From the IMG/VR virus record IMGVR_UViG_3300021959_000518, positions 1-20,639 of that record: a stretch of DNA of 20,639 nucleotides; one strand, written 5' to 3'. This document shows, piece after piece, positions 4,631-18,602 of the stretch. The notes under the pieces are model-generated. The model worked only from the letters and a program-made list of their open reading frames with translations, searched no databases and was not told the origin of the DNA. Each line of letters begins with the position of its first letter. Position 1 is the stretch's first letter. The stretch is from a virus. The position numbers and the translations under genes were made by a program.

Positions 4631-4632
4631 AT

Positions 4633-5430
4633 TTAAGCTCCATCATTTTGTATATATATAATTTCTAGACCTGCTGAAATATCAAAACTTACACTACCAG
4701 AGGAGGATAATGCCCTTACTTCAATATCTGATTTTTCTTCAATCTTTATAGGAATTGAAAATGTTTCTTCAACGTGCATACCTGTTGTTAAAGATTTAAC
4801 ATCTTTCGATTGAAAAACTTCTCCATAAGGTCTTACTGCTAATACTAATTTACAGACTGCAGGAGTATTAGAAGTAGTTCCATTAGATACATCATATTGA
4901 ATAAGGTAAGCAGTATATCCTGCAGGAACTGTCCAAAGAGCCATCAGACTTTGATTTTCTCCTGTTACTCCATTTATAGAAGCATAAACATTAGCAGGAA
5001 CACCTGTTGTAACTGTGCCTGTGCCTGCATATATAACACCTGCATTTGAACCACCACTTCCTGCAGACCTCACAATCATTCTATTTATTCTTAAATATTC
5101 TTTAGTGGTGTTTACTGCAGTCTGACCATTTAAAGTAATTGTTTCATTTATCTCATTATAGTCAGCATCTAAACCAAATAACTCAACTATCCTTGCACCT
5201 GTTCCTGCTGAAGTATCTGCTGTAGATGAGCTTGAAACTTTTAATACTGTAGTTGCAGTTAGATAGCTATAAAGCCCACCTTCTGCCCATATTGTTTCTA
5301 AACTATTACCAACAGTTGTATTGTTACCAAACTTAAAAATAGATTTATGAAATGAAATTTGATTACGAGCTACTTGAAGATAAAATGGCTCAGTAGTGCC
5401 CACCCTACTAATTGAAGATACTTGAGCCAT
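4633..5430 (-). CDS. Virion structural protein (conserved in marine phages)
   Basis: The 265-residue product starts MAQVSSISRVGTTEPFYLQV and contains VLKVSSSSTADTSAGTGAR, LNGQTAVNTT and YAGTGTV, a pattern I recognise from uncharacterised structural proteins of marine podo- and siphoviruses. The protein is predicted beta-rich throughout, with no signal peptide and no membrane segment. The C-terminal part (VEETFSIPIKIEEKSDIEVR followed by SGSVSFDISAGLEIIYI) resembles a jelly-roll-like end. A clear GGAGA ribosome site precedes the ATG. It lies between the small post-capsid proteins and the adaptor-like gene, so a head-completion, tail or appendage role is possible; the sequence does not decide. 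Confidence 0.75.
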   Translation of the reverse strand: MAQVSSISRVGTTEPFYLQVARNQISFHKSIFKFGNNTTVGNSLETIWAEGGLYSYLTATTVLKVSSSSTADTSAGTGARIVELFGLDADYNEINETITLNGQTAVNTTKEYLRINRMIVRSAGSGGSNAGVIYAGTGTVTTGVPANVYASINGVTGENQSLMALWTVPAGYTAYLIQYDVSNGTTSNTPAVCKLVLAVRPYGEVFQSKDVKSLTTGMHVEETFSIPIKIEEKSDIEVRALSSSGSVSFDISAGLEIIYIQNDGA

Positions 5431-5441
5431 ATTTATTCTCC

Positions 5442-5855
5442 TTAATACTCTTTAGCTACCCTTAAGATTACTTGGTAGGCATCACCCGCAGCAGCAGACC
5501 CAGTTGTAGTGAACTTAATATCACCAGTTGGGCTTGTGCCATATGATGAGCTTGAAGGTAGTCCTCCAAACTTTTCAAAGTTGTGATAGCCTTGTTGACT
5601 TTCTGCTAGGTGCATGACAATAACATCTGTGGTAGCGTCTGCTAACACTTCTACTGTCAATCCCTCAACAATCCACCAACACTCAAGTATTCTTACGCCT
5701 GTGCATGTTTCGCCATTGGCGTTCTTAACCAAAGACGATACATCAATCTTCGTAACTGCACTTTCATTGCCAGTATCGACATACTGATATTGAAAAGCGA
5801 ACACAGCCTCACGAGGGTTATCAGCTATCGTAGTTGTTGTTACGATATCAGCCAT
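5442..5855 (-). CDS. Conserved phage structural-module protein, unknown role
   Basis: The 137-residue protein (start MADIVTTTTIADNPREAVFA) has a strong GGGGG-type ribosome site. Features visible are FAFQYQYVDTGNES, a WWIVEG segment near the middle, SQQGYHNFEKFGGLPSS, and a C-terminal strand YQVILRVAKEY. It looks like a single beta-sandwich domain. It is encoded between the capsid genes and the adaptors, with 11 bases to the next gene. I recall similar short proteins from marine phage virion modules but no assigned function. A minor capsid or head-completion protein is possible. Confidence 0.65.
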   Translation of the reverse strand: MADIVTTTTIADNPREAVFAFQYQYVDTGNESAVTKIDVSSLVKNANGETCTGVRILECWWIVEGLTVEVLADATTDVIVMHLAESQQGYHNFEKFGGLPSSSSYGTSPTGDIKFTTTGSAAAGDAYQVILRVAKEY

Positions 5856-5868
5856 TGTTACCCCCTAA

Positions 5869-6078
5869 TTAGCTTAATGCGGCGCCTACTGCAGTTACCC
5901 AAGCAGAACCTGTGTTAATTACTAAACAATATTCATCATTACCAGCACCATTGTCACTAATAATGTAAACTGTTCCTTCAGCAGTATTGGCTGCGGTAGG
6001 TAAATCAGCAGTTGCTACTACTGGATATTCAAATGCGTTATTGGACTTTACTGGTCCTGTAAAAGTTGATCGAGCCAT
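5869..6078 (-). CDS. Small conserved structural-module protein
   Basis: The 69-residue product opens MARSTFTGPVKSNNAFEYPV and then reads VATADLPTAANTAEGTVYII, with a short beta end (CLVINTGSAWVTA). The form (a STFTGPVKS start followed by a hairpin domain) occurs in small proteins or fibre modules of marine phages. GGAGA precedes the ATG. This is the first gene after the capsid terminator, so it is probably expressed at a lower level than the capsid gene. Function unknown; a small fibre-like or decoration protein is possible. Confidence 0.65.
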   Translation of the reverse strand: MARSTFTGPVKSNNAFEYPVVATADLPTAANTAEGTVYIISDNGAGNDEYCLVINTGSAWVTAVGAALS

Positions 6079-6130
6079 GTATTTCTCCTTGTCGTGGCTA
6101 GTGTCTGCTTACGCAGTCAAGGTTAATAGT

Positions 6131-6157
6131 AAAAGGAGAGGAGACTAGCCCCTCTCC
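6131..6157 (-). terminator. Intrinsic terminator after the major capsid gene
   Basis: Read on the minus strand just after the capsid stop codon, the sequence forms a perfect 7-bp stem, GGAGAGG paired with CCTCTCC, around a 9-base loop, followed at once by TTTT. It sits in the 92-base gap between the capsid gene and the next minus gene, as expected for a partial terminator that sets capsid mRNA above downstream mRNA. Confidence 0.75.
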
Positions 6158-6170
6158 AAGTGCGAGGTTC

Positions 6171-7073
6171 TTATGCTGCACCTTCTGTACCAAAAACACC
6201 ACGCCAGTCAGTGAAACCAAAAGAATATCTTTCTCTCACTTTATAACGAATGTTTCCAGTTTCAAAGTCGCCTTCCATGCCCTTTTTCATTGGGCTTCTT
6301 TGGAACATCTTAAGTCCATCAGGAACATCAGTCTTAACAAAGAATGCATCACTGTCTGTTAATCTTCTCATCACATGATAGCCTTGTGGTAAGTATCCAC
6401 CAGACTTGATAGCGTTGAGATCGTTATCAGCAGTTCCTGTCCTTAATTGGCTCTCAAGTAATCTTTCAGCTACGAAAGTATAAGCAGTTGGAATAATAAG
6501 CATTGTGCCTTGTGCAGCAATTCTTAATCCTCTGTCATCCTTCATATCTGCAATGTTTATCAAGATACTCTCTAAAGATGTCTCTGATAAATCAGCCGCA
6601 GTAGCTAAAGTGTTACTTTGGTTACCGTTTTGAGTTGGGTGCGATATGCTCAATAATGAAACGCCATCGCCACCATTTGTTGAAGTTGCGTTATTTAAAA
6701 CATTTGCTGCTTTGATTTCTTTAGTAGAAGCCATAGACCTAGCTAATGCTTTTGTATAACGAGATGCGATTGACCCATAAAGACCATCTTCTTCAGCTTC
6801 TTCAGTAACTGAGAAAGCTAAAGCAATAGTTTCATGCTGATATCTAGCAGTCCACTGTTGAGATGCACTATCGTAACTTACGCTTGCACCTTCGTCTTTA
6901 GTTGGAGCCGCTCCAAAACCTGTCAACAATACATCTTCTTCAAAAGCTTTTTGAGATGTGTTGCTTTCAAATACTGCAGCATACTCTGGTGGGTAACTGT
7001 CATATTCTAAGCCGAACAAGGTATTTAAACCAGGCTCAAGCATTTTTGCAAATTGTGCTCTATTCATTGCCAT
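6171..7073 (-). CDS. Major capsid protein (HK97-fold, Mu gpT-like)
   Basis: The 300-residue protein starts MAMNRAQFAKMLEPGLNTLF, close in form to the N-terminus of Mu gpT-like major head subunits. It continues with YDSYPPEYAAVFE, the SVTEEAEEDGLYGS segment, ARSMASTKEIKAANVLNNA (spine-helix-like) and AISHPTQ-like LSISHPTQNG. The C-terminal RERYSFGFTDWRGVFGTEGA is typical of the capsid P-domain end. It self-assembles into the icosahedral shell around the scaffold. Length is normal for an HK97-fold subunit without a long N-terminal delta domain, consistent with a separate scaffold gene upstream. GGGAGA precedes the first ATG; a second ATG two codons later could also be used. The gene is followed by an intrinsic terminator. 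Confidence 0.9.
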   Translation of the reverse strand: MAMNRAQFAKMLEPGLNTLFGLEYDSYPPEYAAVFESNTSQKAFEEDVLLTGFGAAPTKDEGASVSYDSASQQWTARYQHETIALAFSVTEEAEEDGLYGSIASRYTKALARSMASTKEIKAANVLNNATSTNGGDGVSLLSISHPTQNGNQSNTLATAADLSETSLESILINIADMKDDRGLRIAAQGTMLIIPTAYTFVAERLLESQLRTGTADNDLNAIKSGGYLPQGYHVMRRLTDSDAFFVKTDVPDGLKMFQRSPMKKGMEGDFETGNIRYKVRERYSFGFTDWRGVFGTEGAA

Positions 7074-7087
7074 TGTTTAAATCTCCC

Positions 7088-7642
7088 TTATATTCCAGCA
7101 CTATCTTTGAGCAAGTGCTCATTGATAAGAACTTCCATTATTGCATTTGCACCAAAGGCGTTGTCTGGAGCATCATACAGAGCTATGATCTTAGTGGTTG
7201 CAGTACCTGCCGCCATAGTCCCTGATATTTCAAATCCAGATTGTCCTGTAGTTGCAGAACCAGCACCAGCAACAACATCAGCACAATTACCAATGTTTGT
7301 CTGAGCAGTAGTTCCTGCAGATTGAGCTTTAAACACAGTATAAGGATCATCATAAACATAAGCTTTAATATCTGTAGCTACAGTTCCTGACGGCCAGTAC
7401 TGTGAGTAAACATATGAGCCATCTGAAGCAGTGTATGATACTCCTGCGAAAACGCCTATATTATTTACTTCTGTGGCAGTGTGAGGTGTTATTACACCAT
7501 CTGCAGTGATTATGCAGAGATCACCAGTAAAGATGTTCTCAGCTAAACCTGAAGTAATTGTATATACATTTGCACGAGAATAACCATTACCACTAAGATG
7601 ACGAACGGGTACAAACCCAAAAGCAGCATCAACATTTGCCAT
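7088..7642 (-). CDS. Putative capsid decoration/head protein
   Basis: This 184-residue protein begins MANVDAAFGFVPVRHLSGNG, an opening I recognise from proteins encoded directly before the major capsid gene in many marine phages. The body is beta-rich (VYTITSGLAENIFTGDLCII, NIGVFAGVSYTASDG, DDPYTVFKAQS), in the style of small head-decoration domains. The C-terminal part contains KIIALYDAPDNAFGANAIME followed by VLINEHLL. The position between scaffold and capsid genes supports a head role. GGAGA precedes the ATG. Decoration or cement function is inferred from position and fold appearance, not from a diagnostic motif. Confidence 0.7.
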   Translation of the reverse strand: MANVDAAFGFVPVRHLSGNGYSRANVYTITSGLAENIFTGDLCIITADGVITPHTATEVNNIGVFAGVSYTASDGSYVYSQYWPSGTVATDIKAYVYDDPYTVFKAQSAGTTAQTNIGNCADVVAGAGSATTGQSGFEISGTMAAGTATTKIIALYDAPDNAFGANAIMEVLINEHLLKDSAGI

Positions 7643-7663
7643 TTTTTATCTCCTAGTTAATAG

Positions 7664-8146
7664 TTAGTCTTCCATAGCAGACAATTGTCTGCCACCACTA
7701 ACTGAACTCTTCCTCTCTTGATAGATTCGTTGTCCAGTTCTTTGCCCTAATGCATCAAGGTCGCCTGCAAGTGATTCGTTTTGCTCTACGTTCCTGTTAG
7801 AATAATAAGCTTTCATCTGCTTATGTTTATCTTCAGGCATTTCGCAAAGCAACATTCCTTCAATTCCAATACAACCTTCCCACTGTCCATGATTTATAGT
7901 TGGGAACAACTTACTTTTCACAGTACTAGCAGGGCGAGCTTCCCACCCTTCACGCATTCTTTTAAATACGTTATCTGGTGTGTCCTTCCCCTGAATCGAG
8001 GTAGCTACCCATCGTTGAACATAACCAGGTCTCGGTTCTGGTGCATCCAACAACGCTGGTGGTGTCCAATGTGTCTGAGGTCTTGACTCCTCGTCTCGAA
8101 CACCTGATCGGGTTTCACTTGCTCTTACATTTCTATTTTCAGCCAT
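7664..8146 (-). CDS. Conserved head-module protein, unknown function
   Basis: The 160-residue protein has a polar, disordered-looking N-terminus (ENRNVRASETRSGVRDEE), then a conserved core with PRPGYVQRWV, IQGKDTPDNVFKRMREGWE and GQWEGCIGIEGMLLCEMPED, and a polar C-terminus. I know this core from proteins encoded between scaffold and capsid genes of marine phages. It carries no recognised enzymatic motif. A good AGGAG site lies inside the 3' end of the scaffold gene, and the ATG is two bases beyond the scaffold stop, so the two are probably translated together. It may assist head assembly. Confidence 0.7.
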   Translation of the reverse strand: MAENRNVRASETRSGVRDEESRPQTHWTPPALLDAPEPRPGYVQRWVATSIQGKDTPDNVFKRMREGWEARPASTVKSKLFPTINHGQWEGCIGIEGMLLCEMPEDKHKQMKAYYSNRNVEQNESLAGDLDALGQRTGQRIYQERKSSVSGGRQLSAMED

Positions 8147-8148
8147 GA

Positions 8149-9072
8149 TTAACTCCTTTGACTTTTCTGTATTTCTGAAGCGTACTTTTTCAAGCCAGCC
8201 TCATCATTAATTCCAAGCTCTCTAGCCATTCGTAACTGATCCTGCGTCATGCGAACCCTATTACCTCTGTACGATGAGCCACCCGTAGTTGGTGATACTA
8301 TTTTTCTACTTTTACTTCTCGTACTTTGGTCGTTACTTGATACTAACTCTGGAAAGACTTTTTGTAAACGACTATTTAATGCACTGTAATATTCATCAGA
8401 ATTTTTGTCATATCCCTCTAAATCTAACTGTACATCAATAGCCCTAGCTGCTGCCGTTTCTCTTTCATATCCTTGTGCATTAAACCATTGGTTTTGTTGC
8501 CACCATCCCATAGCTTTAGGTGGTGCTGGATTGACTGCTGCTTGTTGTGCTCTCCCCACTGTAGGCGACTGCGTTTGTTGTTGTTGCCTAAGTTGGTTTT
8601 GCATTTCGTTAACTCTGACTGCGGCTCTCATATCAGCTAATTGCTCAGAAAATGCTACTTGTGCATCTGTATCACCTTCTTCCACAGCCTTTTTTAAAGC
8701 TTCTTTTGTTAACGAATAACGTCTATCAAAGTCACCTTGTAGTTTAGCGTTTTGTTGTTGCTCAGTTGTGCTTTCAAGTCTTTCAAGTCTAGCTTTAAGG
8801 GTTGCTGTCTCTTCTTGGTATTTCTTTGCTTGTAACTCTGCTTCCCTTCTTTGTGCAGATAACTTACTAAATCTAGCTTGTATAGTTTTGCTAAATTTTT
8901 CTTTTTCTTCTTCTGCTGTTTCTTCTTGACTTTTTTCTTCGACTTCAGATTCAGCTTTAACTTCCTCTTTATCGTCTGCTATTTCAATTTCAAAATCTTC
9001 TTTACTAGCTTTACGCCTAGTTTCCTCGATTTCTTTTTCAATCTCTTCCATTGGATTTGAGTTTTCGTTCAT
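8149..9072 (-). CDS. Capsid scaffolding protein
   Basis: The 307-residue protein is highly charged. An acidic N-terminal region (about 1-60, many Glu and Lys) leads into a long predicted coiled coil (about 60-135) with FSKLSAQRREAELQAKKYQE and TLKARLERLE. A Gln-rich linker follows, then a helical C-terminus with MTQDQLRMARELGINDEAGL. This acidic/coiled-coil/basic-end layout is that of phage scaffold proteins, which fill the prohead and are then removed. A GGGGG ribosome site precedes the ATG. The gene order co-chaperonin, scaffold, conserved protein, decoration, capsid supports the call. No protease domain is seen in it, and no separate prohead protease is encoded nearby. Confidence 0.85.
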   Translation of the reverse strand: MNENSNPMEEIEKEIEETRRKASKEDFEIEIADDKEEVKAESEVEEKSQEETAEEEKEKFSKTIQARFSKLSAQRREAELQAKKYQEETATLKARLERLESTTEQQQNAKLQGDFDRRYSLTKEALKKAVEEGDTDAQVAFSEQLADMRAAVRVNEMQNQLRQQQQTQSPTVGRAQQAAVNPAPPKAMGWWQQNQWFNAQGYERETAAARAIDVQLDLEGYDKNSDEYYSALNSRLQKVFPELVSSNDQSTRSKSRKIVSPTTGGSSYRGNRVRMTQDQLRMARELGINDEAGLKKYASEIQKSQRS

Positions 9073-9084
9073 AACTACCCCCTA

Positions 9085-9492
9085 TTAAACGTATGCTGTT
9101 ACATCTACGCCATTTGGCAAGATGCTTGTAACTTCGTCATCATTGAGCAGTAGAAACCTTACGCCATTTATTGTGAGCTTTTGCCCAGCATATTTGCCAT
9201 AAGTAACTCTATCGCCAACCTTTGGTTTGTTGTAAATACGCCAACTTGCCCCACTTTCTCTTTCTCTGTAAGCAAGTTCACCAATAGCAGCAACAATACC
9301 ATGAGCAGTTAAGTATGCTTCGTTTTCTTTTGCTTTTTCTGGTAAAATAATGCCACTTTTAGTTTTTTGTTTGGCTTGGTTTGGTTGTATTAAGATTTTC
9401 CAACCCATTGGTGTTGGTAGTTGGTGTGAACCGATGGTAGCCTTAGACTCTTCATCAGTGTATAGCTTCGCTACGTCATGTTGATGAGACAT
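9085..9492 (-). CDS. groES: GroES-like co-chaperonin
   Basis: The 135-residue protein has the GroES fold signature. LPTPMGWKILIQPNQA (about 25-40) matches the first beta-hairpin of co-chaperonins. KTKSGIILPEKAKE (about 43-56) matches the mobile loop, with IIL in the place of the GroEL-binding hydrophobic tripeptide. Then come HGIVAAIGE, KVGDRVTYGKYAG and RFLLLNDDEVTSIL, as in GroES. The N-terminus (about 1-24) is an extra extension, and an insert (about 74-88) sits where host proteins have a shorter loop. It would cap host GroEL to help fold capsid or other virion proteins, as T4 gp31 does. It lies directly upstream of the scaffold gene, and GGAGA precedes its ATG. Confidence 0.9.
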   Translation of the reverse strand: MSHQHDVAKLYTDEESKATIGSHQLPTPMGWKILIQPNQAKQKTKSGIILPEKAKENEAYLTAHGIVAAIGELAYRERESGASWRIYNKPKVGDRVTYGKYAGQKLTINGVRFLLLNDDEVTSILPNGVDVTAYV

Positions 9493-9494
9493 GT

Positions 9495-9692
9495 TTATTC
9501 ATCTCCTTGATCTAATTTAGTTAAGGTTTCATCGATAATAGCACAGGCGTCTTCTAATCCTTGTGCTATCCCGACGTCTTTTTGGTATGAATGAAAGTCT
9601 GTTTCTCTACCTTCAATCATCTTCTCTGCTATCGCAGATTTCTGTTCTCGTAGATTGTTCTTTATTCTCTTCAGCAGTTCGATTGTGTTCAT
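9495..9692 (-). CDS. Small conserved phage protein, unknown function
   Basis: The 65-residue product (start MNTIELLKRIKNNLREQKSA) is predicted fully helical and is moderately charged. Its ATG is preceded by GGAGAGG at 9 bases. It ends two bases before the GroES-like start, so it belongs to the head operon. The segment GIAQGLEDACAIIDETLTKL looks like a helical hairpin seen in small phage proteins near head genes. The first 80 bases also code, in another frame, for the end of the 48-residue ORF at 9613-9759. No function can be given. Confidence 0.7.
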   Translation of the reverse strand: MNTIELLKRIKNNLREQKSAIAEKMIEGRETDFHSYQKDVGIAQGLEDACAIIDETLTKLDQGDE

Positions 9693-9759
9693 TTAACTTG
9701 ACCTCTCCAGACATAGATACGCCAGTTACAACAACCTCTACATCTTTATTTTTTTCCAT
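9613..9759 (-). CDS. Possible small ORF (48 aa), overlaps next gene
   Basis: This frame starts with ATG at 9759, preceded by AAGGAAAG, and encodes MEKNKDVEVVVTGVSMSGEV followed by a polar tail. The start lies 14 bases inside the preceding lysine-rich ORF. The 3' half overlaps the 65-residue gene by 80 bases in a different frame, which is unusually long for this compact but otherwise orderly genome. The first 24 residues, outside the overlap, look like a real beta strand segment (VEVVVTGVSMSGEVKL). It may be genuine, or a short peptide whose tail is only the result of a missing stop. A longer version from 9807 lacks a ribosome site. Confidence 0.45.
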   Translation of the reverse strand: MEKNKDVEVVVTGVSMSGEVKLNEHNRTAEENKEQSTRTEICDSREDD

Positions 9760-9817
9760 ACTTCTTTCCTTTTTTCTTGACAACTTTTTTCTTAGTTTTT
9801 TTGCCATACATTTTCAT
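9746..9817 (-). CDS. Tiny lysine-rich protein (23 aa)
   Basis: The ATG at 9817 has an ideal AAGGAGAC ribosome site 7 bases upstream. The 23-residue product starts MKMYGKKTKKKVVKKKGKKY, and more than half of its residues are lysine. Very short lysine-rich peptides of this type recur in marine phage genomes and also occur elsewhere in this window (for example at 18178-18351 and 19778-19918). Possible roles are nucleic-acid neutralisation or binding to acidic host or virion proteins; none is shown. It is the first ORF behind a candidate promoter at 9873-9900. Confidence 0.6.
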   Translation of the reverse strand: MKMYGKKTKKKVVKKKGKKYGKK

Positions 9818-9872
9818 TTTTTTGTCTCCTTTTGACATTAAAGATGGAAATTGTGATCTATTCATGCAAACT

Positions 9873-9900
9873 ATAATAGCTGATATAGAATAAAAGCCAA
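9873..9900 (-). promoter_or_regulatory. Candidate sigma70-type promoter for the head operon
   Basis: On the minus strand TTGGCT (9895-9900) and TATTAT (9873-9878) are separated by 16 bases, upstream of the tiny lysine-rich ORF that opens the head module. The match is four of six bases at -35 and five of six at -10. The gap of 86 bases without a gene is one of the largest in the leftward operons, which supports a regulatory role. In AT-rich DNA such matches also arise by chance. Confidence 0.35.
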
Positions 9901-9903
9901 ATA

Positions 9904-10221
9904 TTATTTTTTTATATCTACAATTGGGTCAGCCATAGGGCTTTCAGAATAAACGTATCCAACTGATTGTTTGATAACTTTCCCATGCTCTATTTCATTG
10001 ATTGCTTTAGGGTCATCTTCAAATACATGACCTCCATCTGTTTCGTCACTATTAGGATTAAGGGCGTCTTTACAAGCTTTTGAAAATTCATAATTAGGGT
10101 AGTTGTTTGCATTAAGGCAGTCAGTGCATGATCTAGGGGCATATCTTTTCTCAACAACTCGCAGTCTAGTGCCACATTGTTTGCAGAAGTCAAATTTATT
10201 TTTCCCAACTGTAGAAGACAT
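9904..10221 (-). CDS. Small zinc-ribbon-like protein
   Basis: The 105-residue protein has C13-x-x-C16 (FCKQCGTRLRV) and C32-x-x-C35 (SCTDCLNANN), a four-cysteine arrangement typical of a zinc ribbon or small treble clef. The rest is acidic and polar (VFEDDPKAINEIEHGKVIKQ) with no further motif. I chose ATG at 10221; a TTG at 10230 closer to AAGGA is also possible and would add three residues. The gene overlaps the 3' end of the endolysin gene by 26 bases. A DNA- or RNA-binding or regulatory role is a guess from the zinc ribbon alone. Confidence 0.65.
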   Translation of the reverse strand: MSSTVGKNKFDFCKQCGTRLRVVEKRYAPRSCTDCLNANNYPNYEFSKACKDALNPNSDETDGGHVFEDDPKAINEIEHGKVIKQSVGYVYSESPMADPIVDIKK

Positions 10222-10672
10222 GATCAGCAATTATCCTTACCTTACGCTTGGCGTCAGCCCAATAAGGTCTAACATAAATTGCATGATAATGTGTGGCATC
10301 TTTCACTAAATCTATATTATCTAAATGCCCTTCATGTATAGACTTAGCTAAATGTAAAGAATATTTCCAAGATTGCAAATCTTTTGGTTTATCTGATTTA
10401 CCATCACACCACCAACTAAACTGACATTTGTTTTTTATTGGCTCATTGTTTTTGTATTTACCTTGTAGGACTACGCCACATATTGTGTTTGGAAACCTTT
10501 CGTCTTTAACCCTATTTATAGTTACCATTGCCACAGCTAACTTGCCCAATGTGGGCTGATTTCGTGCTTCGTGGTATATATTAAGGGCTAAGCAGTTAAC
10601 CTCATCACTGCGACAGTTATGGGCGAACATCGTGACTACTGCTAAGATTGTCAGCGTTAAAAGTATCTTCAT
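10196..10672 (-). CDS. SleB-type cell wall hydrolase (endolysin) with signal sequence
   Basis: The 158-residue protein starts MKILLTLTILAVVTMFAHNC, a short Lys-led hydrophobic segment that looks like a signal peptide or signal anchor. The mature part holds NCLALNIYHEARNQP (about 26-40) with the catalytic-type Glu35, then KLAVAMVTINRVKDERFP, the CQFSWWCDG motif (83-91) and DATHYHAIYVRPYW (125-138). This is the pattern of the SleB/CwlJ-like cell wall hydrolase family, lytic transglycosylases that cleave murein. With secretion the enzyme acts in the periplasm at the end of infection. A GGGAGG ribosome site precedes the ATG. It precedes the zinc-ribbon gene in a small leftward operon behind the divergent promoter at 11253-11281. 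No holin is apparent beside it. Confidence 0.85.
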   Translation of the reverse strand: MKILLTLTILAVVTMFAHNCRSDEVNCLALNIYHEARNQPTLGKLAVAMVTINRVKDERFPNTICGVVLQGKYKNNEPIKNKCQFSWWCDGKSDKPKDLQSWKYSLHLAKSIHEGHLDNIDLVKDATHYHAIYVRPYWADAKRKVRIIADHVFYSWEK

Positions 10673-10707
10673 AATAAACCTCCCAGTCTATTAGATTGTT
10701 TATTTTA

Positions 10708-10923
10708 CTAGTTTTGCCTCCTTGTTTCTACAAAATTAATCACATCTTCCCAATCAAACGAGGTATACATTGTATTATACCCACGTTTTATCATTGTATT
10801 TCTTACCTCAAATGGGATGCCAATGTCAGAATCCCCTTCGCTAGTTATTTCCATATAGTCATGACGATATGTTTTTTCGTCTACCTTTTTCCAATTTATT
10901 GGTATTACTTTTGCTTTTAACAA
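10708..10923 (-). CDS. Hypothetical protein, TTG start
   Basis: The 71-residue product reads MLKAKVIPINWKKVDEKTYR, then a mixed charged domain ending FDWEDVINFVETRRQN. It starts at a TTG with a perfect AGGAGG five bases upstream; that site overlaps the TAG stop of the preceding gene, so translation is likely coupled. No ATG in this frame gives a better start. No membrane segment and no known motif; I do not recognise the family. Confidence 0.65.
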   Translation of the reverse strand: MLKAKVIPINWKKVDEKTYRHDYMEITSEGDSDIGIPFEVRNTMIKRGYNTMYTSFDWEDVINFVETRRQN

Positions 10924-10932
10924 TATTACCTC

Positions 10933-11082
10933 CTATGGTCTGTAAATTACAAATTCAGTTTCTAATTTATGTGCTAACTCTTTTAAAATCTCATAAGCCT
11001 CTTGAGTTTTAGGTGTGCACTTTTCTACACCTTTATCTTCTATTAAATTAGTTATATGAATTAATGCTTGTACTTCTTCCAT
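10933..11082 (-). CDS. Small hypothetical protein (49 aa)
   Basis: The product starts MEEVQALIHITNLIEDKGVE and ends KLETEFVIYRP; it is predicted mostly helical with one Cys. An AAAGGAGGATATTAAT leader gives an excellent ribosome site inside the end of the upstream 41-residue gene, and the two are one base apart (TAAtATG). Its stop lies within the ribosome site of the next gene. The tight packing supports a real gene. Family not recognised. Confidence 0.6.
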   Translation of the reverse strand: MEEVQALIHITNLIEDKGVEKCTPKTQEAYEILKELAHKLETEFVIYRP

Positions 11083-11083
11083 A

Positions 11084-11209
11084 TTAATATCCTCCTTTTG
11101 AAAGTTTCTTGTCGAATTGTCTTTGCTTTTTATTACCTCTTTTCTTTAAAGCCTTTTCCCAACCTCTACTTGTTGAGTGTACTTTTGACTTTCTATCTTT
11201 AACTTTCAT
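11084..11209 (-). CDS. Small basic protein (41 aa), first gene of leftward unit
   Basis: The product begins MKVKDRKSKVHSTSRGWEKA and ends QFDKKLSKGGY; about a third of its residues are Lys or Arg. A GGAG site lies six bases before the ATG, and the candidate promoter at 11253-11281 is just upstream, so this is the first gene of the unit leading to the endolysin. Small basic proteins of this type are common in marine phages, and some may bind nucleic acid. No specific function can be assigned. Confidence 0.6.
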   Translation of the reverse strand: MKVKDRKSKVHSTSRGWEKALKKRGNKKQRQFDKKLSKGGY

Positions 11210-11252
11210 TTTTTACTCCAAATTTTGTTAATCGTTTTTCGTCTATTTAATT

Positions 11253-11281
11253 AATATAATATATGTAAATACATATGTCAA
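11253..11281 (-). promoter_or_regulatory. Sigma70-type promoter, leftward
   Basis: On the minus strand a perfect TTGACA (11276-11281) is followed after 17 bases by TATATT (11253-11258), one mismatch from TATAAT. It lies 44 bases before the 41-residue ORF start, in the largest non-coding stretch of the window. A 16-bp inverted repeat fills its spacer. Confidence 0.75.
11261..11276. promoter_or_regulatory. Inverted repeat, candidate operator
   Basis: ATATGTA and TACATAT form a perfect inverted repeat with 2 bases between the arms. It occupies the spacer between -35 and -10 of the leftward promoter, where a bound dimeric repressor would block RNA polymerase. Because the DNA is AT-rich, a chance palindrome cannot be excluded. 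Confidence 0.45.
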
Positions 11282-11316
11282 CATCTAATTTGGGTTTATT
11301 TAACATTTTTTATGGG

Positions 11317-11345
11317 TTGACATTGTTTTTTGTTTGTGATAGAAT
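11317..11345 (+). promoter_or_regulatory. Sigma70-type promoter, rightward
   Basis: TTGACA (11317-11322), a 17-base spacer and TAGAAT (11340-11345) give a near-consensus promoter 35 bases ahead of the first plus-strand gene. It is back to back with the leftward promoter: 35 bases separate the two -35 boxes. Confidence 0.8.
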
Positions 11346-11379
11346 CATTTCAACGAACAACTAAATAAGGAAAAACAAA

Positions 11380-11613
11380 ATGAGTAAATACAAAAACTTT
11401 CTAATGGATATAGAAGAAACAATTACCAATAACATCACTGTTAATATGGTTTCAGAATCAGAAAATGTTACTGAGTTATTTGATATAACTTGTAATAAAA
11501 TTAAGAAACTTAGCAATGGGCAATTTATCGTAGGTGCATATGACGACATGATTAAGGATGTTTGCCATTGGGCTTGGGATGAGTATTGGTCACGATATAA
11601 GGAGGGTTGCTAA
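11380..11613 (+). CDS. Hypothetical protein, first gene of plus-strand island
   Basis: The 77-residue product starts MSKYKNFLMDIEETITNNIT and ends with an aromatic segment (HWAWDEYWSRYKEG). It is predicted helical and acidic, with two Cys in the second half besides the one at the end. A purine-rich AAGGAAAAAC leader precedes the ATG. The stop overlaps the next start by one base (TAATG), so the two are co-translated. It is the first gene behind the strong rightward promoter and is therefore likely expressed early or constitutively. I do not recognise the family. Confidence 0.7.
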   Translation: MSKYKNFLMDIEETITNNITVNMVSESENVTELFDITCNKIKKLSNGQFIVGAYDDMIKDVCHWAWDEYWSRYKEGC

Positions 11614-12080
11614 TGGAGGTGGATTACAGATATCACGATGGTGGTAGGTCAAAGTATTTTAAAGGTAATGCTGGGGATTGTGTCGTAAGGGCAATCTCCA
11701 TCTCTACCAATATTGACTATAAGGTTATTTATGACGAGTTATACCAACTCAACAAAGACTATAAGAAGTCACGAAATAACAAAGTATCTAAGAAAATGAA
11801 AAGTGCCACACCTAGAAATGGCAATTTTAAAAAGGTGTATCATGATTATATTCTTGGAAAAGGTTATCGATATGTGCCATTGATTAAGTTTGGTTCTAAA
11901 GAGAGGACAAGACTTGACCAACTGAGTAAGCTCAAGAACATTATTGTCTGCATAAACAATCACATGATGACAATGAAAGATAGTATTGTTTACGATACTT
12001 GGGATACTAGGTACTCATATTGGGAAGGTGTCAAAGCTATTAGGACTGTAAACGCTTATTACGAGAGGTTAGAGGCATGA
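11613..12080 (+). CDS. Probable papain-like cysteine peptidase-fold protein
   Basis: The 155-residue protein has GDCVVRAISISTNIDYKVIY (about 21-40), with Cys23 at the start of a helix; INNHMMTMKDSIVYDTWD (about 114-131), with His117 on one strand and Asp128 on the next; and VYHDYILGKGYRYVPLIK between them. The order Cys, His, Asp is that of papain-like and C39-like peptidases and their relatives, and a phage family with GDCVVRA and a later H-x(10)-YDT pattern is known to me as uncharacterised. I placed the start at ATG 11613, seven bases after GGAGG and overlapping the previous stop; a TTG at 11607 is less likely. It could be a protease, amidase or deubiquitinase-like enzyme acting on a host or foreign protein. 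Confidence 0.65.
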   Translation: MEVDYRYHDGGRSKYFKGNAGDCVVRAISISTNIDYKVIYDELYQLNKDYKKSRNNKVSKKMKSATPRNGNFKKVYHDYILGKGYRYVPLIKFGSKERTRLDQLSKLKNIIVCINNHMMTMKDSIVYDTWDTRYSYWEGVKAIRTVNAYYERLEA

Positions 12081-12292
12081 CAATGATGAGTATGATAAAA
12101 GGATACACCTCAGTATTTCAGTGCATAGGTGACGCTTATATCTCTAGAGATGCACAAAGGTTTTATTATGGGTATCTTCTTTGTATTAGAGCTAAGACTA
12201 ATATTAAGGCTTTGCATAAATACTTAATTAATAGACATAACTTTAACAGAATTATTTGTGCCAAGTTGTTAAGAAAGGCTAGGGTAAAATGA
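12077..12292 (+). CDS. Small basic hypothetical protein
   Basis: The 71-residue product (MTMMSMIKGYTSVFQCIGDA...) is rich in Tyr, Arg and Lys and ends LLRKARVK. The start overlaps the peptidase-like stop by four bases (ATGA), a common sign of coupled translation. Several ATG codons follow closely, so the true N-terminus may be a few residues later. No signal peptide or known motif. It is likely co-expressed with its neighbours; function unknown. Confidence 0.65.
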   Translation: MTMMSMIKGYTSVFQCIGDAYISRDAQRFYYGYLLCIRAKTNIKALHKYLINRHNFNRIICAKLLRKARVK

Positions 12293-12420
12293 AAGGTTTT
12301 GTAATTACAATTACGCTTTTATTATCTTTAAGTTCTTGCACCTACAAACACCAAGTATCCAAATGGGATAATAGCGTCTTATTAGGAACGATTGTAGGCA
12401 CTTTAGTAAGTTTGAACTAG
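12289..12420 (+). CDS. Tiny lipoprotein (43 aa)
   Basis: The product starts MKGFVITITLLLSLSSCTYK. A Lys-led hydrophobic stretch ends in the lipobox L-S-S-C with the lipidated Cys at residue 17. The mature part is only about 27 residues and ends in a second hydrophobic run (VLLGTIVGTLVSLN). The start overlaps the previous stop (ATGA). The stop codon shares the palindrome CTAG with the stop of the facing 946-residue gene. Small phage lipoproteins often block superinfection at the outer membrane or act in lysis (Rz1-like). Rz1 proteins are usually proline-rich, which this one is not, so superinfection exclusion is the better guess, but unproven. Confidence 0.7.
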   Translation: MKGFVITITLLLSLSSCTYKHQVSKWDNSVLLGTIVGTLVSLN

Positions 12421-15257
12421 GTAGCATTAGCTTGGGTGCTAGGCATATTGCTTAGTGCCCCTAATTGCTCCTCTAATCCTATTGCGGTTCCAGCACCCAT
12501 AGTAAATAGAGATAATCCCTTTAGAACTTTTTCCCTTAACTCTGGTGTAATTTTGATTGTGACTGATTCTTGTTTTTGTGTAGCATTTCTAAAATCAGCA
12601 TTATCTTGGGCTTGCTCTAAGGTTTTAAAGGATGCAACTGGTTTATCAGTGCCAACTTCTTTAACCATATATAATCTATCAAGTGGTGTTTCGCCCCTCA
12701 TCATTACTACTGTATGTAAATTCTTGGGTCTAATTTCTACCATAGCCTTAGTCACATTTTCTTTTCCTGCCACTTTTTTTGCCATCGCTGGTATTACATT
12801 ATCATAGTGATTATATAAACCTTCATTGCCCCATCTATCAACTTGAACTTGTCCAGGTGAAAAGGACACACTATCATGACCTTCTTTTACTGCTCTTTGT
12901 AGCAATCTTTTAATACCAACCTTTGTCCAGTCTTCAGTTTTTTCCACCAAATCCCCACCAGGGACATTGCCCATCATTTTGTTACCAGTTTCAGTAATAT
13001 CATTTCTTAAATCATCAGCGTAACCCGCAAATGTGTCTAAATCTGGAAATTTATTACTTCCTTTTAAATCATATCTCTCGTATTGAATATCTTGCAAAGC
13101 AGAACGTAACCGATTAATTTGTTGTTCCTCACTCATTTCATTAAACTTTGGTGGGAAACCATCCAAATCATCTCTGCCAAGTGGATACCTTCTATCATTA
13201 TCTATTATTCTCATCAGATTAAACATTTCAACATCACTGGAACCTTTATAATCTGGATCACTTATGAAGTCCAAGTAATCTGATAATTTCATAGTTTTAA
13301 ATTCTTCAGGAATCCTACTATTATCTACGTCAAGAAATTCTTCTAAATCAGCCCTCAGTCTTTGTATGCTAGTTCCTAGCAATCTGTCATCACTCAACAT
13401 ATTAGCTTGATCAGTGGCAAGTTTTAATTCGCTTGGTGATAAATCGCTTCTGAAAGGCACTCTGATTATTGGTTTGTCTGGATTAGCTCTTTTGTAAAGC
13501 TCTTCTTGTTCGTAACTTTTTAATTTGATTGGTATGTTTTTAAACGTATTAATTAACTCTGAGTTTAAACCATTCATTTTCTCTTCTAATTTAGCGTATG
13601 AGCGGCTGCCTGGTGCAAAGCCCCTTCGTCTTCCAGCTTGCCCTCTATCTGATTGTAGCTCTTCTACATATAAGGTTTTGCTACCATCATCCAAAGTTCT
13701 ATCTTTAGTTCTAACGTGAACTATTGGATTATAGTTTGGAAAGTGGGCTGGGTTTATGTAGTCATCTACTGCATCATACTCACCACTTTGAGCTAATGTA
13801 GGATTATTAGACTGCTTACCCAGTACAGCTTCTTTGTAATTAGAGCCACCTTGTTGTGTGCTCTCTGAAAATCTAGCATCTTTAGCTACATAATCGCCAT
13901 TTTGTATGGCATAACTTTCTGTCTGCACTATGGCTTCGTTTATGTTTCCTCTCTCAGCTATCTCATTAAATCTATATGCATCCATATCATCTCCACTATC
14001 TCTGAACCCCTTATATTGTTCTGATTGTGTGATATCAAATATGTCTGCATCTTTATCAAATGTAAGAAAGTTTTGACCATCATCGTCATAAACTATTCTG
14101 TAACCCGTCTTCGTATCTTCCAAAACTTTTGTAGGATTTACTAGCTCTGTTTCTGCTCGTGTTTTATCTGATACATTTAGACCTTTGTTTAGTTCATCTA
14201 TTTCATAATTACTAAATTTATTATATGAAGGTGTTTCTGATATTTTGTCAGCTATATTCTCAAATATAAGGCTTGAACCTTCTGCAACTGGATTGTCTTG
14301 ATAAACATCCTCGTATAATTGTAGCTTATTTAAATTAATTTTGGTTAATATGTCTTTTTTTGTGATTGGTCTGCTTGTAACTTTAAATAGTTCATCAAGA
14401 CCAGTGTCAAATAGCTCAGTTTCAGAAATGCCTTGCCCTTTGAAAAAATTCTCAAAGTCTTTGCCACTTCCTTTTGTTTGTTTCATCTTATTAGCAAGCT
14501 CTTCTGACTTGTAGTAAAAGCCAAAATCATCTAACTTTCTTGGGTTTGTCATAACCATATTAGGTGGCATTCTTCGAGTGCTTGCTAACATATTAGGTTC
14601 AGCTTTAGGTAACGCCCCTATGGTTGGTGCAGATACTTCTGTATCACCTTTGATTTTGCCTGCTAAAGATTTAGCAAAATTTTTAAATTTTTTTAATATT
14701 GGTTTAGCTAAATAAGCAAACCCCATACCCTCTACTGCCCCAGATGCCATATCAAATAATGGTATTGCTACTTCTGGTCTATCTAGATATGTTTGAAATG
14801 GTTGCCTCATAAAACTTAGTGATGCCATTTGTCTTTTAAATGCATTTGGTTCAGCTTTTATTAGTGCTCTTTGCCCTTCTTGGGCAGCAAACAATGAACC
14901 TATAGGCGTAGCATCAACAAGACCAATACTGTCTTCTGTGCCAGTAAATGATTCTGTTGTATCTTTAAGCGTTCTTCTGCCTTCTCGAACATCTTTCCCT
15001 ACAATACCTTTTGATTTCAAATATTCTAAAGCTGACCGCACATTTTTTTGACTTGTATCTCTCATGGTAGGATTATAAGCTGGCTCTAACATGTAGCCTT
15101 GAGATTGTTGTATGTACTTTTCCAATTGATTTAGGGGTACGCTAGAGTTGTATATCATAGAAGCATATCTAGGGTTTTCAAACACACTTGGCTCTACGCT
15201 TTGTGCTTCCCTTAGCCTATTCTCTCTAAAAAATCTATCTAGCTCAGTCTCAGCCAT
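12417..15257 (-). CDS. Large polyvalent protein (946 aa)
   Basis: This is the longest gene in the window. Residues 1-200 are mostly helical and include a hydrophobic stretch near 165-190. Around 248-320 the pattern YYKSEELANKMKQTK, GQGISETELFDTGLDEL and ITKKDILTKINLN is that of a domain repeatedly found in large polyvalent proteins of phages and plasmids. Residues 473-548 (NYKEAVLG, then PIVHVRTKDRTLDDGSKTLY and VEELQSDRGQAGRRRGF) and 775-830 (EDWTKVGIKRLLQRAVKEGH, FSPGQVQVDRWG, LYNHYDNVIP) continue a second such domain. The C-terminus has a short hydrophobic run (LSLFTMGAGTAIG). These proteins are thought to be packaged and delivered with DNA. The start abuts the previous stop (TAAATG). Activity unknown. 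Confidence 0.75.
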   Translation of the reverse strand: MAETELDRFFRENRLREAQSVEPSVFENPRYASMIYNSSVPLNQLEKYIQQSQGYMLEPAYNPTMRDTSQKNVRSALEYLKSKGIVGKDVREGRRTLKDTTESFTGTEDSIGLVDATPIGSLFAAQEGQRALIKAEPNAFKRQMASLSFMRQPFQTYLDRPEVAIPLFDMASGAVEGMGFAYLAKPILKKFKNFAKSLAGKIKGDTEVSAPTIGALPKAEPNMLASTRRMPPNMVMTNPRKLDDFGFYYKSEELANKMKQTKGSGKDFENFFKGQGISETELFDTGLDELFKVTSRPITKKDILTKINLNKLQLYEDVYQDNPVAEGSSLIFENIADKISETPSYNKFSNYEIDELNKGLNVSDKTRAETELVNPTKVLEDTKTGYRIVYDDDGQNFLTFDKDADIFDITQSEQYKGFRDSGDDMDAYRFNEIAERGNINEAIVQTESYAIQNGDYVAKDARFSESTQQGGSNYKEAVLGKQSNNPTLAQSGEYDAVDDYINPAHFPNYNPIVHVRTKDRTLDDGSKTLYVEELQSDRGQAGRRRGFAPGSRSYAKLEEKMNGLNSELINTFKNIPIKLKSYEQEELYKRANPDKPIIRVPFRSDLSPSELKLATDQANMLSDDRLLGTSIQRLRADLEEFLDVDNSRIPEEFKTMKLSDYLDFISDPDYKGSSDVEMFNLMRIIDNDRRYPLGRDDLDGFPPKFNEMSEEQQINRLRSALQDIQYERYDLKGSNKFPDLDTFAGYADDLRNDITETGNKMMGNVPGGDLVEKTEDWTKVGIKRLLQRAVKEGHDSVSFSPGQVQVDRWGNEGLYNHYDNVIPAMAKKVAGKENVTKAMVEIRPKNLHTVVMMRGETPLDRLYMVKEVGTDKPVASFKTLEQAQDNADFRNATQKQESVTIKITPELREKVLKGLSLFTMGAGTAIGLEEQLGALSNMPSTQANAT

Positions 15258-15719: not shown

Positions 15720-15913
15720 TACACTTGTCCTGCTGATAGTGTTCTAGCCAATATCTCTAGAGTTTCCTGAAAGCCTTTATCTAGCTTCTTAGCTGCAGTA
15801 GCAAATTTCTTTGGGCTTACCTCATCTGATTCCAAGCCTTTTGATTCTAAAAATTTCTTAGCAGCTCTTATTTCAGCGTTAGCTACTTTTTTTATTTTTG
15901 TTCTTTTAGCCAT
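15719..15913 (-). CDS. Small basic helical protein (64 aa)
   Basis: The product opens MAKRTKIKKVANAEIRAAKK and continues FLESKGLESDEVSPKKFATA with a helical end (FQETLEILARTLSAGQV). It is Lys- and Ala-rich and probably a helical bundle of two or three helices. It overlaps both neighbours by one base (TAATG at each side), so it is translated with them. It may be a packaged or nucleic-acid-associated small protein; I do not recognise a named family. Confidence 0.65.
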   Translation of the reverse strand: MAKRTKIKKVANAEIRAAKKFLESKGLESDEVSPKKFATAAKKLDKGFQETLEILARTLSAGQV

Positions 15914-16980
15914 TATTTATCCTCACCAAAGTCTATGCCAATTCTTTTTGGGTTTAGCGGCCCGTCCACATTCTCTGATCCTCTTAGATATCTTACATCA
16001 GCGGCGATGAAAGGTCTATTAGATAGATAAGCTTCTACCATTCTATGATTACCCTCAGTTATAAAAGGTACGCCATCTTCCCTCACATGTATTAATATTC
16101 TGTCTCCACCTTTTTCTGCACCTTGATAGCCTTTTTCTTTTATGGATTTTTTTAGGCTTTCCAATCTGGGCCCAGACATTCTATATTTTTCTTCTTCAGC
16201 ATGACCTTTAATGTTTATAAGCTCTTGGGGGCTAAACTTAACATTATCAGCAAAACCTGTTATACCACTCACTAGTCCTATAGGGTCATTGCTTGGGTTT
16301 GATGCTTTGTATTCATTGTTTTCCCTAATCTTTTTAGCTATATATGTTTCACCAGTTATTGCATCTAAGAATGGTGGATTATCTATTCTGATAGTAGCAC
16401 CCTTTCTTAAATCATTGAATGATTGTGGCAATGCACCATAGGGGTTTTCTCTAAATGCAATGCTATAATCTTCGCCATCTCGCCCAAATTCTCTAATTGT
16501 CATTGCTTCTACATCAAGATCATTCATCAATTTCTTTTCAGCCATGCCTGTAATCAAAGGTCTGTTTGACTGTTTCATGTAAATCATATTTAGATTAGCA
16601 AGTGAGCTAGATATTCCTTTAGCATCTTTCTGTTCAAGAAATTTTTTAGCTAGTTCAAAATCTTGTTTAGTATTAGGTATTTCGTTCTTTTCTAAATTAC
16701 TTATTTCTTTTTTTATCCAATTATATGATTTTTCCAAACTATCTTTGTCTCTAATATCTAAAATACTGTCAGGCATTTTTGTTGTTCTTAATATACTTTC
16801 ATCTGCTTTATATAATTCAGCGTATGTTTTATCTGGAGAATAGAATACTGCACCTTCGTTTGGAAAACTATATTTTGGTTTTTCAAAACGATACAATTCA
16901 TTTGGAGAAGGCAACGCACCTATCTTGTTTCCAAGAGCGTCTACTACATTCTCAATACCTTTTGCAATAATATTTTTCAT
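15913..16980 (-). CDS. Two-domain protein: ART-like N-terminus, ParB-like C-terminus
   Basis: This 355-residue protein starts MKNIIAKGIENVVDALGNKI. At 29-58 it has LYRFEKPKYSFPNEG and AVFYSPDKTYAELYK, which looks like the first part of an ADP-ribosyltransferase-like fold (substrate-loop strand and YFSxD-type segment). The C-terminal part (about 271-333) has SGPRLESLKKSIKEKGYQG, ILIHVREDGVPFITEGNHRM and VEAYLSN, with the G-x-HR-type motif (EGNHRMVEAY) of ParB/sulfiredoxin-like domains. ParB-like domains in phage polyvalent proteins may bind nucleotides or cut DNA. The start overlaps the upstream stop (TAATG). The ParB-like part is fairly secure; the ART-like part is tentative because catalytic positions cannot be placed with certainty. 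Confidence 0.65.
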   Translation of the reverse strand: MKNIIAKGIENVVDALGNKIGALPSPNELYRFEKPKYSFPNEGAVFYSPDKTYAELYKADESILRTTKMPDSILDIRDKDSLEKSYNWIKKEISNLEKNEIPNTKQDFELAKKFLEQKDAKGISSSLANLNMIYMKQSNRPLITGMAEKKLMNDLDVEAMTIREFGRDGEDYSIAFRENPYGALPQSFNDLRKGATIRIDNPPFLDAITGETYIAKKIRENNEYKASNPSNDPIGLVSGITGFADNVKFSPQELINIKGHAEEEKYRMSGPRLESLKKSIKEKGYQGAEKGGDRILIHVREDGVPFITEGNHRMVEAYLSNRPFIAADVRYLRGSENVDGPLNPKRIGIDFGEDK

Positions 16981-17747
16981 TATGTGCTTTCATCTAGTCC
17001 AGCTAGTGCACCCAAGCCAACTGCAGTAGTCGCTGGTGGTATTATAGATGCATATATATTGCCTTTGTCTGCCTTTTCAGGATCAAATTGTGCAAACACA
17101 CTTCTTACATTGCCCTTCTCTGGATAAAATAAACCAACTGTCCTATTGCCAAATCTTGCTGTTTCGTTAGTTAGAAAACCCTCAAAACCCAAATCTTTTA
17201 TAGCTTTACTTATGTCTGGCTCTTGCAACTTGAAAGGGTCTCCAATCTTTGTGTCCATATCTAAGCTTTGACCTAATTCTTTTTCTAACATTTCTTGGTG
17301 TTGTGGGTTTTTGTAGTTATAAACATTATCTATTTTTAATTTTACTGGATATATTCTGGAGCTTTCGTGAGGTAGATAGTAAGTAAGACCACCTTTATTA
17401 ACAGGCATACCACCCTTAAGTGCAAATCCTTCTGTGTATCTTGGGTCTTCGCTAAAATATGTTACTGGCTCACCTACTCTTCTTTCTCTAAAGCCTCCAA
17501 AAGCTGTTCTGTCAGAAGCTTGAGGTACAAATTCCATAATGTTCTTTTCTGGACTACCATGATAGAAAGTCTTAGGATCAAAACCTCTTTCCATTAATTC
17601 TTTCTCAGTTGGTAGGTTACCTAGCTCTCTTAATTGTTCTTCAGTAGGCATAGCATCTAAAACTTCACCAGCACCTTGATATGGCACTACATCTTTGCTT
17701 CTTACGCCCTTGTTAATTAATTTTGCAAATACACCAAATGGGTTCAT
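16980..17747 (-). CDS. ADP-ribosyltransferase-like polyvalent protein
   Basis: I place the start at ATG 17747 (255 residues), one base after the upstream stop; an in-frame ATG at 17876 would add 43 residues lying inside that gene. At 61-65 FYHGS matches the NAD-binding His of H-Y-E type ADP-ribosyltransferases, and at 95-100 PVTYFSE with DPRYTEGFA matches the Y-F-S/T strand. The late motif VRSVFAQFDPEKADKGNIYA (214-233) is a well-known ending of this domain in phage and toxin proteins. It would transfer ADP-ribose to a host protein or nucleic acid. A short hydrophobic end (237-250) may help membrane passage. It sits in a row with other polyvalent genes, suggesting injection with the genome. 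The target is unknown. Confidence 0.75.
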   Translation of the reverse strand: MNPFGVFAKLINKGVRSKDVVPYQGAGEVLDAMPTEEQLRELGNLPTEKELMERGFDPKTFYHGSPEKNIMEFVPQASDRTAFGGFRERRVGEPVTYFSEDPRYTEGFALKGGMPVNKGGLTYYLPHESSRIYPVKLKIDNVYNYKNPQHQEMLEKELGQSLDMDTKIGDPFKLQEPDISKAIKDLGFEGFLTNETARFGNRTVGLFYPEKGNVRSVFAQFDPEKADKGNIYASIIPPATTAVGLGALAGLDEST

Positions 17748-17748
17748 C

Positions 17749-18006
17749 TTACCAAGCCTTACATGACCAATATCTAGCTTTTGTCTTCGATCCTGGATTG
17801 TCACAGTTATGTCTAGACCTAAAGCTTTTTCTATTGCCCTTTTGGGTTTTCTTGATTCGCATGTTTGGATCACCAAATGTCACACGCTTTACCTTATCAC
17901 CATCCATAACGTAAACAACTGACTTCTTCTTGCCATAGGATGTTTCGCCTTTAGCTATTCTTCTAGGCTTATTTAGAGATACACTTTTACCTTTATACTT
18001 AGCCAT
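17749..18006 (-). CDS. Small conserved marine-phage protein (85 aa)
   Basis: The product starts MAKYKGKSVSLNKPRRIAKG, carries VVYVMDGDKVKRVTFGDPNM in the middle, and ends with RSRHNCDNPGSKTKARYW and a final C-K-A-W. The ending with NCDNPG and YWSC, with two Cys and one His, is a signature I recognise from many marine phage genomes, but without known function; the Cys/His residues could bind a metal. The protein is strongly basic. It overlaps the previous gene by 8 bases and precedes the ART-like gene by one base. Its constant position next to structural or polyvalent genes suggests a virion-linked or DNA-binding role, unproven. Confidence 0.75.
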   Translation of the reverse strand: MAKYKGKSVSLNKPRRIAKGETSYGKKKSVVYVMDGDKVKRVTFGDPNMRIKKTQKGNRKSFRSRHNCDNPGSKTKARYWSCKAW

Positions 18007-18351: not shown

Positions 18352-18370
18352 AATACCTCCTTATATTGGG

Positions 18371-18399
18371 TTGACTTATCTCTTGTTTTATTTTACTAT
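18371..18399 (+). promoter_or_regulatory. Candidate promoter of the small plus-strand gene
   Basis: TTGACT (18371-18376) is one base from consensus. Seventeen bases later TACTAT (18394-18399) follows, overlapping a TATAAA at 18397. The gene with its AAGGAG site begins 30 bases downstream. Nine bases around the -35 (TGGGTTGAC) are identical to those of the promoter of the larger plus-strand island (11313-11321). Confidence 0.55.
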
Positions 18400-18428
18400 A
18401 AAAGATTAAAAATGCACAAGGAGATATT

Positions 18429-18602
18429 ATGGAAGACCCACATAGCTTTAGATCATTTATAAATGAAAAATTAACACATTTTGTTAGTCTATTAGGTGAT
18501 GAAACTTTGACTGTGGAACAAGAAAACACATTAGATAGTATTGATAGATACATATGTAATGAAACTGGTATAGACATTAAAAAATTTCCTAATTACGATT
18601 AA
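18429..18602 (+). CDS. Single-gene plus-strand island, hypothetical protein (57 aa)
   Basis: The product starts MEDPHSFRSFINEKLTHFVS and ends GIDIKKFPNYD; it is acidic and helical, with one Cys. AAGGAGATATT gives a strong ribosome site and a promoter-like sequence precedes it, so it is preferred over the minus-strand ORF that overlaps it (18344-18577), which has no ribosome site. It sits between two leftward genes. Its TAA stop shares the palindrome TTAA with the stop of the facing 392-residue gene, as in the larger island. Family not recognised; an accessory moron-type gene is likely. Confidence 0.7.
   Translation: MEDPHSFRSFINEKLTHFVSLLGDETLTVEQENTLDSIDRYICNETGIDIKKFPNYD

Follow-up and report, generated by a model that had tools for sequence, protein, structure and literature searches.

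Phage morons and similar accessory loci have been described by Juhala et al. (2000) and Cumby et al. (2012), as cited in PMC7067206. The PeSL mobile regulatory cassettes of T4-type phages are known from Arbiol et al. (2010) and Comeau et al. (2014), as cited in PMC4177764 and PMC4503421. The locus considered here is located in a 20.6-kb virus record (20,639 nt, IMGVR_UViG_3300021959_000518), the whole of which was analysed and is referred to as the window. The phage is marine and related to the Roseobacter phages CRP-901 and CRP-902, with which it shares the order of the virion genes (87% identity of the MCP to this group; 77% identity between TerL of CRP-901 and that of G005, a near-complete relative of the window). 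G005 encodes a Toprim/DnaB-type primase-helicase, whereas a primase-polymerase has been reported for CRP-901, and the window therefore represents a neighbouring, not identical, phage group.

The preliminary description of the window had pointed to four coupled plus-strand genes (A to D) running against an otherwise leftward genome. The coordinates, strand and junctions of these genes (TAATG between A and B, ATGA between B and C and between C and D) proved to be exact. Comparison with relatives revealed that they are real genes, preceded by a promoter of a shared family, and that the cassette to which they belong is absent, replaced or located elsewhere in some relatives, with its core inverted in one of them. 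It is probable, in our view, that the island forms the rightward half of an accessory cassette read in both directions from promoters of phage type, and that such cassettes, or single arms of them, have been gained, lost, moved and inverted at the promoter units. The features of the locus are listed in Table 1.

Table 1. Features of the two-armed cassette and the A-D island (positions in the window)
Feature	Position	Strand	Characteristics
Whole two-armed cassette	about 9803..12420	.	Replaced by an insert of ~0.9 kb in L345; lacking in CRP-901/902
Zinc-ribbon-like protein	9904..10230	-	Sub-threshold DZR match; kept beside SleB
SleB-type cell wall hydrolase (predicted endolysin)	10196..10672	-	Hydrolase_2 E=1.9e-23; PHROG endolysin
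Three small leftward-arm genes	11084-11209, 10933-11082, 10708-10923	-	Vary among relatives
Leftward promoter TTGACA-17-TATATT	11253..11281	-	TGTAnnTACA dyad in spacer; matrix score 41; unit profile E=1e-18 (in the profile seed, E-value not independent)
49-bp divergent core with both -35 regions	11273..11321	.	Identical but inverted in L037
Rightward promoter TTGACA-17-TAGAAT	11317..11345	+	Extended -10 (TG upstream), followed by the shared 5'UTR ACGAACAAC (11353)
Gene A	11380..11613	+	77 aa; dN/dS 0.15-0.19; kept in 5/5 near relatives
Gene B	11613..12080	+	155 aa; phrog_3754; predicted papain-like (C39/Josephin-like) thiol hydrolase fold; Cys23, His117, Asp128/Asp131; dN/dS 0.09-0.16
Gene C	12077..12292	+	71 aa; predicted four-helix protein; dN/dS 0.03-0.10
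Gene D	12289..12420	+	43-aa lipoprotein candidate, lipobox LSSC; dN/dS 0.08-0.40

All five near relatives carry A to D in unchanged order, and each of these genes is under purifying selection in the comparison with them. This conserved order, together with dN/dS values of 0.03-0.40, identifies them as real genes and not chance frames. The leftward orientation of the surrounding genome holds for most of the fragment, but not for the phage group as a whole, since near-complete relatives carry a rightward block of ~8 kb (3508-11400 in G005), and the window itself contains a second rightward gene (18429-18602, 57 aa), which follows a promoter-unit-like site (region 18368-18602, plus strand). CRP-902 has a homolog of the latter, gp71 (39% identity), as its lone rightward gene; this 77-aa gene had been considered as a counterpart of A, which was rejected because of its match to 18429-18602.

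Several other features of the surrounding genome deserve mention. The product of the minus-strand gene at 16980-17876 resembles ART-PolyVal, the ADP-ribosyltransferase of polyvalent proteins, at a level below the threshold (E=2e-5), and its neighbour (15913-16980) has a similar-looking segment at its start. The gene adjoining the island (12417-15257, minus strand) encodes a 946-aa protein that could be placed in no family; it is 45-63% identical in relatives whose adjoining genes reach 92-98%, and is therefore unusually fast-varying or exchanged. In the tail region of G005 (23445-25636; L098:4015-5176), two 2OG-Fe(II) oxygenase genes adjoin each other.

The near-consensus promoter reported ahead of the island is present and strongly conserved in the near relatives, but as a bare consensus match it is not significant (the window has two sites matching 11/12 or better, versus 1.2 expected). 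It is conservation that makes it count: despite differences in the genes alongside, each of the five near relatives retains the -35 and -10 regions and the 5'UTR intact. The promoter lies directly upstream of A-D, on the strand opposite to that of both neighbours, and the four genes would thus form a transcription unit of their own, as expected of a moron. The leftward promoter, only 36 bp from the rightward -35 region and directed towards the three small genes, SleB and the zinc-ribbon gene, makes the island one arm of a divergent pair. Further promoters of like make were found in the relatives; they consist of GGGTTGAC, a TGTAnnTACA dyad in the spacer and an AT-rich -10 region, followed by ACGAACAACAAAAT-GGAG before the start codon. 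With a matrix built solely from promoters outside the window, the leftward promoter scored 41, compared with at most 18 in shuffled sequences. A profile of the ~90-nt unit (nhmmer) matched the leftward promoter at E=1e-18, a value that, like those of some of the other sites, is not independent, because these sequences were included in the seed. The rightward promoters, which were absent from the seed, were matched at E=6e-4 in the window and at E=8e-6 to 6e-9 in the near relatives.

Copies of the unit number from one to six per genome or contig, with several in the longer related genomes, and stand before different gene groups, including those of the rightward early-type block of the relatives, where they are found beside PD-(D/E)XK nuclease, ERF and DUF932 genes. 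The profile search detected no unit in CRP-901/902. Since both promoters of the window belong to the unit family, the promoter of the island is of the phage group's own type and not foreign; what had been taken for an independent promoter is one copy of a phage-family unit. No other copy has diverged as far, however, and the spacer dyad is missing from it; judging from these differences it may be regulated differently from other units. The dyad occurs between the -35 and -10 regions of most units (window 11253-11281, minus strand; G005 6394 and 8254; G006 208 and 21984), and its form suggests an operator for a regulator.

The right boundary of the cassette is sharp: the stop codon of the last rightward gene, whether D or c77, overlaps that of the converging leftward gene (CTAG, as for D in the window, or CTAA). 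Only a weak hairpin with no good T run was found behind D (12430-12444), and no terminator-like site is present in 11206-11384.

What changes among the relatives is larger than the island. In L345 the flanking gene order is that of the window (identities of 92% for MCP, 79% for GroES and 42% for the 946-aa gene). In place of ~9803-12420, however, L345 has 0.9 kb that carries a single promoter unit followed by two different rightward genes. Neither CRP-901 nor CRP-902, which resemble the window in their virion genes, contains the zinc-ribbon gene, SleB, A, B, C or D anywhere in its genome, and the annotated lysozyme of CRP-901 lies in the tail region, elsewhere than the SleB of the window. In G006, the tail genes and the end of the rightward block flank the SleB/B module, and other rightward genes occupy the old junction. 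Gene content also varies on a smaller scale: L003 and L004 carry an extra small gene ahead of A, and the gene c34 is leftward in these two and rightward in G010. Finally, L037 has a 49-bp stretch, with both -35 regions, that agrees with the window at every position but is turned round with respect to the two arms (it scored 127 in the inverted and 58 in the direct alignment, with shuffles at 30 or less); this core was found in six contigs of the whole viral collection. The absences refer to relatives other than G018 and the contigs ending at SleB, whose junctions fall at contig ends. Taken together, these rearrangements indicate that the mobile unit is the two-armed cassette, or its arms, and not the 1.1-kb island alone. 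The comparison at this junction, which the preliminary description had proposed, thus bears out variable presence (with absence in L345 and CRP-901/902), but for a two-armed unit, and all five near relatives keep the island in place.

These observations bear directly on the original view of the island as a classical moron, i.e. 1.1 kb of foreign, rightward DNA that brought along a promoter and a terminator, placed between two leftward genes and acting in superinfection exclusion through D. The opposite strand, the separate promoter, the accessory-type products, the absence of the cassette from CRP-901/902 and the lipobox of D all agree with such a unit. We nevertheless regard it as unlikely, because the SleB arm belongs to the stretch whose presence varies, the promoter is of the phage family's own type, the site behind D is no more than the weak hairpin, and D is confined to the nearest relatives. 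Moreover, foreign origin inferred from base composition was rejected: the GC content of the island (~33.8-33.9%) is not deviant, as it lies within the range of the window (mean 36.6%, sd 2.9%). The accessory-type genes with a promoter and their variable presence therefore stand, the deviant composition and the size of the mobile unit do not, and “moron-like” is a fair term for the behaviour of the cassette.

The GC content of the island also matches that of the rightward block of G005 (34.6%), which raises the question of whether A-D are ordinary early genes, displaced from this block, with plain housekeeping roles and no special mobility. B is found inside early-type operons in other phages (L115-L120), and the near relatives all keep the island in place. 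Such an origin appears very improbable, however, in view of the replacement between the same boundaries in L345, the two orientations of c34 and the extra gene in L003/L004, and the inverted core of L037.

B is a member of a large and widespread family. It has no Pfam or NCBIfam model, and searches of Pfam, NCBIfam, PADLOC and PDB sequences with the island proteins gave nothing useful; phrog_3754, by contrast, matches B and all 66 aligned members of its family. The family comprises 385 loci in viral contigs and 77 in bacterial and archaeal assemblies, and in Polynucleobacter it is mostly a single-copy chromosomal gene (44 of 61 genomes tested). Among the Polynucleobacter assemblies (L202-L235), the gene of L203 adjoins those of purA and malate synthase, and in a planctomycete (L258:3989-5182, and similar loci) the domain is fused to DUF2786 in proteins of ~400 aa.

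The preliminary description had named B a probable cysteine peptidase-fold protein, and this is supported by a confident AlphaFold2 model (pLDDT 91.6) and by the alignment, in which Cys23 and His117 are invariant (66/66 each) and Asp128 (65/66) and Asp/Asn131 (64/66) nearly so. As the search patterns held the Cys motif but not His117, the latter is the freest test of these residues. In the predicted structure the Cys stands at the start of a helix and the His and Asp on later strands, which is the order of papain-like enzymes, and the best PDB matches (Josephin-2, staphopain and a C39 peptidase domain) are of this class, although none is significant (best E=0.1); a viral model that bears the name Peptidase C39 gave E=0.033. 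B thus resembles the papain-like cysteine peptidases in the arrangement of these residues and in its weak best structural matches, but differs from them in that no sequence-profile match to these peptidases was found and no oxyanion-hole Gln is apparent. A papain-like fold of B is likely, and hydrolase activity would be putative. A literature search for papain-like early proteins of phages returned nothing bearing on this family. In GBK2 a B-family gene lies among early-type genes near that of RecT. Since the gene is also chromosomal in Polynucleobacter, a purely anti-host role of B is not a given.

A was found only in the clade of the window and in L037 (70% identity). C is represented by 63 loci in viral contigs, often adjoining B or SleB, and a shorter form follows B in L021, L024, L033 and L037; its AlphaFold2 model (pLDDT 81) has four helices. 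A resemblance of C to the clamp-loader collar or other helical bundles was not used, as it appeared only at E above 1. D, the tiny lipoprotein of the preliminary description, remains a candidate for one: like bacterial lipoproteins it has a Lys, a hydrophobic stretch and a lipobox ending in Cys (MKGFVITITLLLSLSSC), and the lipobox and Cys are kept in all five near relatives. Among more distant relatives D was not found.

A candidate lipoprotein beside an endolysin could also point to host lysis as the purpose of both arms. SleB would then be the endolysin, D a small lysis lipoprotein of the outer membrane, and B an enzyme that regulates lysis or takes part in it by processing. In many relatives SleB does adjoin B or C; both arrangements occur, and the genomic location varies. 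However, B lies far from any SleB in L115-L120, where it belongs to early-type operons, as well as in unrelated phages, its sequence has no signal peptide, most neighbours of SleB occur without D, and relatives of the L033 type have B without D. A joint lysis module is therefore improbable.

Under the preferred reading of a two-armed accessory cassette, two back-to-back copies of the promoter unit would drive the SleB endolysin arm to the left and A-B-C-D to the right, the latter being read early by the host RNA polymerase. B would be a cytoplasmic thiol hydrolase of the papain-like type, directed at a protein of the host or of its defence, with C as its partner, and D would act at the envelope. 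A-D is thus viewed as a probable early host-interaction arm, which may serve host takeover, counter-defence or exclusion. Exchange could proceed by annealing at the repeated promoter units, through an ERF-type recombinase such as that seen in a relative. Several points weigh against this reading: the rightward promoter is the most diverged copy, the PDB matches of B are non-significant and an oxyanion-hole Gln is not apparent, B is also chromosomal in Polynucleobacter, and the near relatives all keep the cassette in place. A bolder proposal, which we consider quite unlikely, is that the 49-bp core is itself an active exchange element, with which the phage group would re-wire and trade two arms, one for lysis and one for host takeover, the latter centred on a new papain-like effector family. 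The ends of the core are the two -35 regions in inverted repeat, so it could flip or be swapped with neither promoter being broken.

Whatever the role of its products, the cassette links a marine phage group to a widespread family of proteins with a predicted papain-like fold, which is represented by no Pfam or NCBIfam model and is chromosomal in free-living freshwater bacteria. Like a phage moron, as presented in PMC7067206, the island is a small group of genes that runs counter to the lytic genes on either side, has a promoter to itself and is present in some relatives only. In contrast to a moron, the cassette is two-armed with an endolysin, has a phage-type promoter, a GC content that is not deviant and no clear terminator; the isolated relatives show no sign of lysogeny (PMC10149686). 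The promoter unit shares with PeSL a repeated conserved promoter before shuffled small gene groups. It differs from them in having no terminator stem-loop (11206-11384), and in its one to six copies, divergent pairs, inverted core and different phage group. The cassette may be considered a sequence-level example, outside the T4-like phages, of reused promoter units marking the sites at which accessory modules are exchanged.
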